A DNA stretch of 64,000 bases. It comes from Candidatus Deferrimicrobiaceae bacterium (lineage in GTDB: Bacteria; Desulfobacterota; Deferrimicrobia; Deferrimicrobiales; Deferrimicrobiaceae). The position numbers and the translations under genes are program-made. Positions within the stretch are counted from its first letter, which is position 1; every line of letters starts with the position of its first letter. Of this stretch, positions 26,470 through 27,564 are shown piece after piece. The notes under the pieces were generated by a model that ran no database searches, was not told the DNA's origin, and was given only the letters and a program-made list of their open reading frames with translations. The stretch lies in assembly GCA_036504035.1 (NCBI GenBank), contig DASXVV010000011.1, forward strand, positions 73,611-137,610, in the 5' to 3' direction.

Positions 26470-27401
26470 CTTCCTGGCTATTCGCTCGACGGCCGGTGCG
26501 CGTTCACCGGCTCACGCTCGGACATCCTGTCCTCGCTGCCGCCGGCGGCCTCGGCGCGCTGCCGGCGCCATCCACGGCGCCTCATCCTCGCTATTCGCTC
26601 GGCGCTTGCCTCAGAGCTCGAATCCCCGTCACGAATATTACCAGACGGATTCTCGCTCCCCTTGGGGACAATGTGTTTGGGATAGAGTCCTGATATGTTG
26701 GCGTTTGCGGGGATTCGCCTACGCAAGCCGAACATCCTGTTCGTCTTGCTCCGGCCCGGGTCGTCTGCCTGCCGCGGCCATCCATGGCCGCTCTTCCGGG
26801 CTACTCGCCCGGCGACAGTCTCCCGTTCGAATCCCCCTGGGGACAATGTGTTTGGGAAAAAGACTTCGTATGTTGGCGTCTTGCCAAGGGATTCGCCTAC
26901 GCAAGCCGAACATCCTGTTCGTCTTGCTCCGGCCCGGGTCGTCTGCCTGCCGCGGCCATCCATGGCCGCTCTTCCGGGCTACTCGCCCGGCGACAGTCTC
27001 CCGTTCGAATCCCCCTGGGGACGATATGTTTGGGAAAAAGACTTCGTATGTTGGCGTTTGCGGGGATTCGCCCTCCCTTCGCGCACATCCTGTGCGCTCG
27101 TTCGGGTCCGGCTTCCGGCCTTACGCCCGCATCCATGCGGGCTCATCCTCGCTATTCGCTCGGCGGCCGGTGCGCGTTCGAATCCCCCTGGGGACGATAT
27201 GTTTGGGAAAAAGTCCTGATATGTTGGCGTTTGCGGGGATTCGCCCTCCCTTCGCGCACATCCTGTGCGCTCGCTCGGGCCCGGCTTCCGGCCTTACGCC
27301 CGCATCCATGCGGGCTCATCCTCGCTATTCGCTCGGCGGCCGGTGCGCGTTCGAATCCCCCTGGGGACGATATGTTTGGGAAAAAGACTTCGTATGTTGG
27401 C
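26470..27401. repeat. Tandem array of ~175-bp structured repeats ending at tRNA-Glu
   Basis: Four clear units: 26704-26878 (175 bp), 26879-27056 (178), 27057-27229 (173) and 27230-27402 (173). A decayed unit covers about 26470-26703. Each ends with GTTCGAATCCCCCTGGGGAC (27003-27022, for example), a spacer of the GATATGTTTGGGAAAAAG type, and ATGTTGGCG. Each begins with a sequence resembling the tRNA-Glu 3' end on the other strand (GGCG...GGGGATTCG). Unit lengths are not multiples of three, so the overlapping plus-strand reading frames are not evidence of protein. Inside each unit are hairpins with constant loops and varying stems. No transposase was seen nearby. Confidence 0.85.
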
Positions 27402-27421
27402 GTCCCCAGGGGGATTCGAAC
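27349..27421. repeat. 20-bp inverted copy of the tRNA-Glu 3' end
   Basis: GTTCGAATCCCCCTGGGGAC at 27349-27368 is the exact complement of 27402-27421, which is the T-arm/acceptor 3' half of tRNA-Glu. They are separated by 33 nt containing a U-rich run on the minus strand. A transcript reading past tRNA-Glu could pair its 3' end with this copy. Confidence 0.85.
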
Positions 27422-27473
27422 CCCCGTCGCCGCCGTGAAAGGGCGGTGTCCTTGGCCTCTAGACGATGGGGAC
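27398..27473 (-). tRNA. tRNA-Glu (TTC)
   Basis: A 76-nt cloverleaf with encoded CCA. Acceptor GTCCCCA/TGGGGAC, anticodon loop CCTTTCACGG with anticodon TTC, and T-arm GGGGGTTCGAATCCCCC. It lies 15 nt after tRNA-Lys on the same strand. Confidence 0.95.
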
Positions 27474-27488
27474 GCATGAAAAACAAGT

Positions 27489-27564
27489 TGGTGAGCCCAG
27501 CGCGGGTCGAACGCGCGACCCTCTGATTAAAAGTCAGATGCTCTGCCAACTGAGCTATGGGCTC
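27489..27564 (-). tRNA. tRNA-Lys (TTT)
   Basis: A 76-nt cloverleaf with encoded CCA. Acceptor GAGCCCA/TGGGCTC, anticodon stem-loop CTGACTTTTAATCAG with anticodon TTT, and T-arm with GTTCGAC. It is first in a two-tRNA unit behind the promoter at 27579-27608. Confidence 0.95.

Follow-up and report, generated by a model that had tools for sequence, protein, structure and literature searches.

Mobile DNA that enters tRNA genes usually owes its tRNA specificity to an integrase, with one tRNA per element, and integrons work through folded single-strand sites. Among the closest described systems are the Islander-type islands of tyrosine integrases, for which the T-loop is a known attachment subsite and duplication of a tRNA fragment a hallmark (PMC4383910). 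Like the element reported here, these islands insert in the T-loop region of tRNA and tmRNA genes, restore the tRNA 3' end and leave the displaced 3' fragment as a direct repeat. Integron attC sites, including attC clusters that lack an integrase, are structure-conserved hairpin DNA sites that also form tandem arrays without an integrase, and many carriers of our element have an integron integrase. REP/BIME palindromes and PATE or MITE elements share with it that they are short, palindromic, intergenic, dispersed and without an ORF. In the deltaproteobacterium Geobacter metallireducens, a multicopy intergenic repeat runs into a tRNA gene; the source says that it 'continues as' a tRNA-Asn gene and describes it as an alignment, with function unknown (PMC2700814). 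Compared by description only, that repeat is a possible earlier sighting of the element. The open literature yielded no description of a mobile element of this kind; a prior description elsewhere is possible. The absence of a described counterpart in the open literature agrees with the first-pass annotation, which had called the element unfamiliar, and its novelty is provisional.

The window, a stretch of 64,000 nucleotides from a Candidatus Deferrimicrobiaceae genome, contains a tandem array at 26657-27403 (TRF; period 173, 4.3 copies, score 837). Its four units, of 173, 173, 178 and 175 nt, end at tRNA-Glu(TTC) on the minus strand. We refer to the tRNA's own C56-A76 segment as T, to an inverted copy of the tRNA 3' end as iT and to a direct copy as T'. 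In tRNA orientation, a unit consists of a spacer (29 nt), iT, a hairpin core of 105-107 nt and T'. The features are as follows.

27398-27473, minus strand: tRNA-Glu(TTC), host gene of the array (ARAGORN; Rfam tRNA, 61 bits)
27398-27418, minus strand: T segment (C56-A76) of tRNA-Glu, from the sequence
27369-27397, minus strand: spacer 1, from the tRNA 3' end to the first iT, from the sequence
27349-27368, minus strand: iT of unit 1, exact reverse complement of the tRNA-Glu 3' end, GTCCCCAGGGGGATTCGAAC
27244-27348, minus strand: hairpin core of unit 1 (R1 match 27224-27369, 131.9 bits)
27324-27338, 27303-27310 and 27259-27265, minus strand: core motifs of unit 1, respectively CGCCGAGCGAATAGC, the CATGGATG loop and the CAGGATG loop
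27225-27243, minus strand: T' of unit 1, direct and partly decayed, CGAATCCCCGCAAACGCCA, from the sequence
27052-27224, minus strand: unit 2 (R1 match 27051-27196, 128.6 bits), with spacer 27196-27224, iT 27176-27195, core and T' 27052-27070
26874-27051, minus strand: unit 3 (R1 match 26876-27023, 135.0 bits), with spacer, iT 27003-27022, core and T' 26874-26895
26699-26873, minus strand: unit 4 (R1 match 26698-26845, 143.7 bits), with spacer, iT 26825-26844, core and T' 26699-26717
26489-26668, minus strand: stand-alone class B element (R1 match 26489-26637, 75.5 bits, and reading of the flank)

The first-pass annotation had recognized the tandem array leading into tRNA-Glu, and it had placed tRNA 3' ends in both orientations within it. 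Both orientations are present, but their assignment has to be exchanged: the exact 20-nt copies (plus-strand GTTCGAATCCCCCTGGGGAC, n = 4: 27349-27368, 27176-27195, 27003-27022 and 26825-26844) are the inverted ones, and the copies it called degenerate are direct. These T' copies are partly decayed (CGAATCCCCGCAAACGCCA; CGAATCCCTTGGCAAGACGCCA in unit 3). The 'decayed unit' that it had counted as an array member (26489-26637) belongs instead to a stand-alone subclass, class B; its own inverted repeat, GGAGCGAGAATCC ... GGGGATTCGAGCTC, does not derive from tRNA-Glu and is followed by a core as in the array units. Nor is tRNA-Glu the building material of the repeats, as had been supposed: one constant core is combined with tRNA-derived ends that differ from one host tRNA to the next. 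Its view that the repeat is non-coding stands. ORFs of 306, 231 and 161 aa run through the repeats (26606-27526, plus strand; 26784-27479, plus strand; 26478-26963, minus strand). The long ORFs across the array repeat with the units and are likely spurious, a source of false gene calls. The array is unlikely to be an assembly artefact: its design is found again in many independent assemblies, one of them from a Treponema isolate.

The array is not a local feature: the genome that carries it (G000) holds 22 BLAST matches to one unit and 21 matches to a covariance model, most of them at other tRNA genes. Beside the BLAST matches, ARAGORN placed tRNA-Leu(CAG), Lys(CTT), Arg(TCT), Ser(CGA) and Leu(CAA), and the ends at these five match the local tRNA, not tRNA-Glu. 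The model, a check that the first-pass annotation had suggested, was built from 12 copies. It detected the element in 20 of the 24 host-family genomes, in 21 of 297 from a phylum-wide sample (sporadically outside the host family) and in 15 of 198 from Spirochaetota. Cultured carriers include Treponema sp. C6A8 (NZ_JHVB01000001). A strict DNA pattern searched across 84,980 species matched 'Deltaproteobacteria' MAGs, many Treponema and Spirochaetales, and one Latescibacterota; it also matched one 'Betaproteobacteria' MAG, which comes from the same sample and may be mis-binned. Class B elements without a tRNA were found at further loci (L027, L028, L071, L108, L116, L124, L133, L143 and L144); their hallmark is a conserved GGAGCGAGAAYCC...GGGTTCGAGCTCC inverted repeat preceding the core common to tRNA-linked copies. 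One genome, G012, has 40 family matches, many of class B, and several lie at contig ends; the repeat therefore breaks assemblies.

Of 115 fetched matches, 70 follow the 3' end of a same-strand tRNA or tmRNA gene at a distance of less than 300 nt. When matches in Spirochaetota and Latescibacterota were picked solely by the model, 23 of 25 showed this placement; of the two that did not, one had been positioned from an assumed coordinate and actually adjoins tRNA-Leu. Class B elements stand alone. Hosts include tRNAs of at least fifteen specificities, namely those for Glu, Leu, Ser, Arg, Lys, Asn, Thr, Ala, Met, Pro, Gln, Tyr, Gly, Val and SeC, together with tmRNA. Copies at tmRNA occur in G000 (L099, G000:C8:63800-65000) and, outside it, in several Treponema and Spirochaetaceae (L165, L173, L180, L185 and L198). 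For the 70 copies near a tRNA or tmRNA, the longest stretch shared with the own tRNA averaged 12.6 nt inverted and 16.1 nt direct, compared with 7.0 and 6.4 nt for tRNAs of other isotypes. T' is clearly recognizable in 63 copies: its first base is exactly C56 in 40 of these and U55 in 15, a 55/56 boundary, and in most it ends at about the tRNA 3' end, whether or not CCA is encoded; T' is usually an exact copy of 18-22 nt of the adjoining tRNA. The direct repeat extends over the tRNA 3' end plus 0-54 nt. As in tRNA-targeted islands, the displaced tRNA 3' fragment forms a direct repeat and the target gene is restored.

Two rival readings were weighed. The first is a MITE, or palindromes of REP/BIME type or IS200/IS605 origin that a Y1 transposase mobilizes; these would also be small, palindromic, dispersed and free of ORFs. 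However, neither REP/BIME nor PATE/MITE elements are tied to tRNA 3' ends or have ends rewritten at each locus. The ends track the host tRNA, and there is therefore no constant terminal inverted repeat; a short constant target duplication is likewise missing, and the earlier suggestion of a MITE fails on both points. Several carriers also lack a Y1 transposase: none was found in G000, with its 21 matches, or in G001, G002, G141, G298, G311, G425, G483 and G508. We rejected a REP/IS200 origin on this ground and give the REP, IS200 and MITE reading as a whole almost no credence. The second reading is a local satellite: slippage during replication, together with palindrome-driven duplication, would have produced the repeats at tRNA 3' ends, with no mobile element involved. 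Tandem arrays (four units at Glu, three at Ser, two at a displaced Leu) and the homogenization of units inside an array speak for it. 'Satellite', a term used in the first-pass annotation, nevertheless describes the tandem arrays only. A core common to three phyla and many tRNAs cannot form locally each time, and those tRNAs of G000 that have no core have no inverted copy either. We consider a purely local origin hardly tenable.

Comparison of copy presence between related genomes, also proposed at the outset, revealed seven orthologous tRNAs (SeC, Val, Arg-TCT, Arg-TCG, Lys, Gly-CCC and Leu-TAA) that are filled or empty among three congeneric genomes. Several of these cases involve divergent MAGs with only loosely alignable flanks, and SeC is the cleanest. 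Here, the flank that follows CCA in the empty genome is the flank that follows the distal T' in the filled genome; the extra DNA is therefore enclosed by two copies of the tRNA end. Within a single genome, cores beside different tRNAs can be 85-92% identical and yet have locally matched ends, as in the pairs Lys/Arg in G000, Leu-GAG/Arg-TCG in G010 and Thr/Ala in G004. The nearest neighbor of a core was found at a tRNA for the same amino acid in 31 of 63 cases, compared with a null expectation of 9. Cores thus cluster by amino acid, and much of the distribution therefore reflects inheritance at the same tRNA, not jumping. Judged from sequence comparison, inheritance at a site and jumping both appear to contribute.

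In 16 of 55 copies, the spacer recognizably repeats the native flank or terminator that follows T' (4% among mismatched pairs, taken as the null); examples are L248, L164 and L006. The fresh direct repeat therefore runs from C56 to beyond the terminator, enclosing iT and core. The rest of the 55 copies, which show no clear flank duplication, may be old, or their spacer may arrive with the element. We saw no excised or circular form and no element-borne gene; the element, at about 150 bp, has no coding capacity.

We consider it probable that copies of a non-autonomous mobile DNA element have piled up in the array, and that this element inserts into tRNA and tmRNA genes at the T-loop. We also put forward, tentatively, that the element could represent a new class of non-autonomous DNA transposon, which would target the near-universal T-loop of tRNA and tmRNA genes, travel as a folded hairpin, have its ends rewritten for each host tRNA and occur in at least three phyla. 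The mobile unit would comprise the inverted end and the hairpin core, some 130 nt, and would move as a folded single DNA strand. Its core ends (..CGAACC / GGTCGA.., GGTTCGA-like) would base-pair with the conserved GGTTCRA of the T-loop. Primer extension or template switching would produce one inverted and one direct local copy of the tRNA 3' end, and the ends would in this way be rewritten at every new tRNA. We infer this local-copying step from its end products: tRNA ends occur in the order direct, inverted, direct, and the core separates the last two, as expected if copying took place at the T-loop. The insert would then start with an inverted copy of the segment of that host tRNA from C56 (or U55) to the 3' end, and the same segment would flank the insert as a direct repeat, which in fresh insertions would also include the native terminator. 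The host gene would stay intact because its 3' segment ends up on both sides of the insert. Arrays would grow by repeated insertion or by unequal exchange between direct repeats.

If the element does fit itself to every tRNA and to tmRNA, this would be a new way of inserting into essential genes, as one core could colonize any tRNA gene without breaking that gene. It would point to a T-loop copying mechanism that acts on single-stranded DNA, account for the tRNA-end repeats that disrupt assemblies and yield spurious ORFs, and add a host-level substrate where prophages and islands integrate.

The main rival reading is that a tyrosine recombinase, perhaps an integron integrase, acts in trans on mini integrative elements that enter the T-loop by ordinary site-specific integration; the spacer and inverted T-arm would then belong to the att site of the element, and the tRNA 3' end would be restored. 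Attachment at the T-loop and duplication of a tRNA fragment are known from islands (PMC4383910). All 18 tested carriers have tyrosine recombinases, and G000 encodes an integron integrase (TIGR02249, 471 bits). Among Spirochaetota, an integron integrase is present in 8 of 15 carriers versus 13 of 183 non-carriers (P = 1.7 × 10−5), and folded single-strand sites are the integron mode of action. However, the phylum of G000 shows no such association (8 of 21 versus 100 of 276, P = 1.0), and G216, a single-contig, 100% complete genome with six copies, has no integron integrase. The 55/56 junction differs from the integron G|TT crossover, lying two bases from it, and the element has tRNA-specific ends and the T-loop GTTCRAN instead of RYYYAAC/GTTRRRY boxes. 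A canonical attC of G000 (L260, 2332-2435) is unlike the element. Furthermore, a moving circle would carry the donor 3' end into a new tRNA, whereas a single core was observed beside tRNAs of every kind, each time with ends that match the local gene. Islander-type islands are specific for one tRNA and have an integrase; the element, at about 130-150 bp, has none, uses one core for all tRNAs and differs in its extra inverted tRNA end, its tandem arrays and the flank duplication in fresh copies. We regard movement by a tyrosine recombinase as unlikely, and an integron integrase as sole mobilizer was rejected, as the association is found only in Spirochaetota and the junction is wrong. Retro-copying was likewise rejected because reverse transcriptase (RVT_1) is absent from 11 of 18 carriers, including the single-contig G216. 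The repeats may still be read as a recombination-site array, another of the first suggestions. L260 (G000:C8:246273-248060) itself contains a complete integron integrase with one or more canonical attC sites (GTGCCTAAC...GGCGTTGGGC) behind it, unrelated in sequence to the tRNA elements.

The hairpin structure is strongly conserved. Across 116 distinct aligned copies, 93.5% of cells are paired, and double changes occupy 688 cells versus 228 after shuffling. Outside the closing stem, G-U and A-C pairs number 36:32, with neither strand favoring G-U over A-C, whereas the tRNA stems of carrier genomes show 35:1. The ratio is 10:7 in Spirochaetota and Latescibacterota. Decayed copies could account for part of the parity, but it persists (15:18) when only the 71 most intact rows are counted. 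Because G-U and A-C are equally rare, the structure is kept regardless of strand wobble, as is expected of DNA hairpins or of templated palindrome correction. Single-strand DNA folds beat shuffles in four of five tested copies (z from −4.1 to −8.8); the fifth, unit 1, reached a z of only −1.5. The element thus resembles attC sites in conserving a folded DNA strand, by covariation, by G-U and A-C parity and by DNA folding.

The same alignment bears on whether the repeat could be a functional tRNA-linked RNA selected beside tRNAs, for example a CsrA decoy with GGA loops or a tRNA-like minihelix that is processed out of read-through transcripts. Covariation is strong, the closing stem imitates the acceptor/T-arm helix, and the conserved loops CATGGATG and CAGGATG resemble CsrA motifs. 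Yet the stems lack the preference for G-U over A-C that tRNAs of carrier genomes have, core loops vary to CACGATG or GACCTTGCGGA, and presence is polymorphic among congeners. An Rfam search returned nothing beyond two tRNAs and weak, sub-gathering matches overlapping tRNAs. A functional RNA is very unlikely, and a CsrA-sponge RNA was rejected, as the suggestive loops are opposed by the parity and the loop variants. Selection on DNA or RNA had been proposed initially; judging from these alignments, it seems to act on DNA hairpins, not RNA.

Neither 50,697 phages nor 72,556 plasmids gave a blastn match, and carriage by phages or plasmids was rejected. One viral-classed contig (L232, IMGVR_UViG_3300044712_001904, minus strand) ends in a tRNA-Leu 3' fragment followed by an element cluster; it is a prophage attachment site abutting a host element array. 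In G000, a stretch of about 46 kb that starts with a tyrosine integrase (G000:C9:199846-246548; L229, L231 and L024) sits between tRNA-Leu(GAG) and two elements whose ends match tRNA-Leu(GAG), and is apparently an island inserted between this tRNA and its element array. A second tandem array in the same genome (L025, G000:C6:223567-224057) follows tRNA-Ser(CGA) with three intact units and one decayed, and it forms a near-perfect palindrome through the terminator and the tRNA end.
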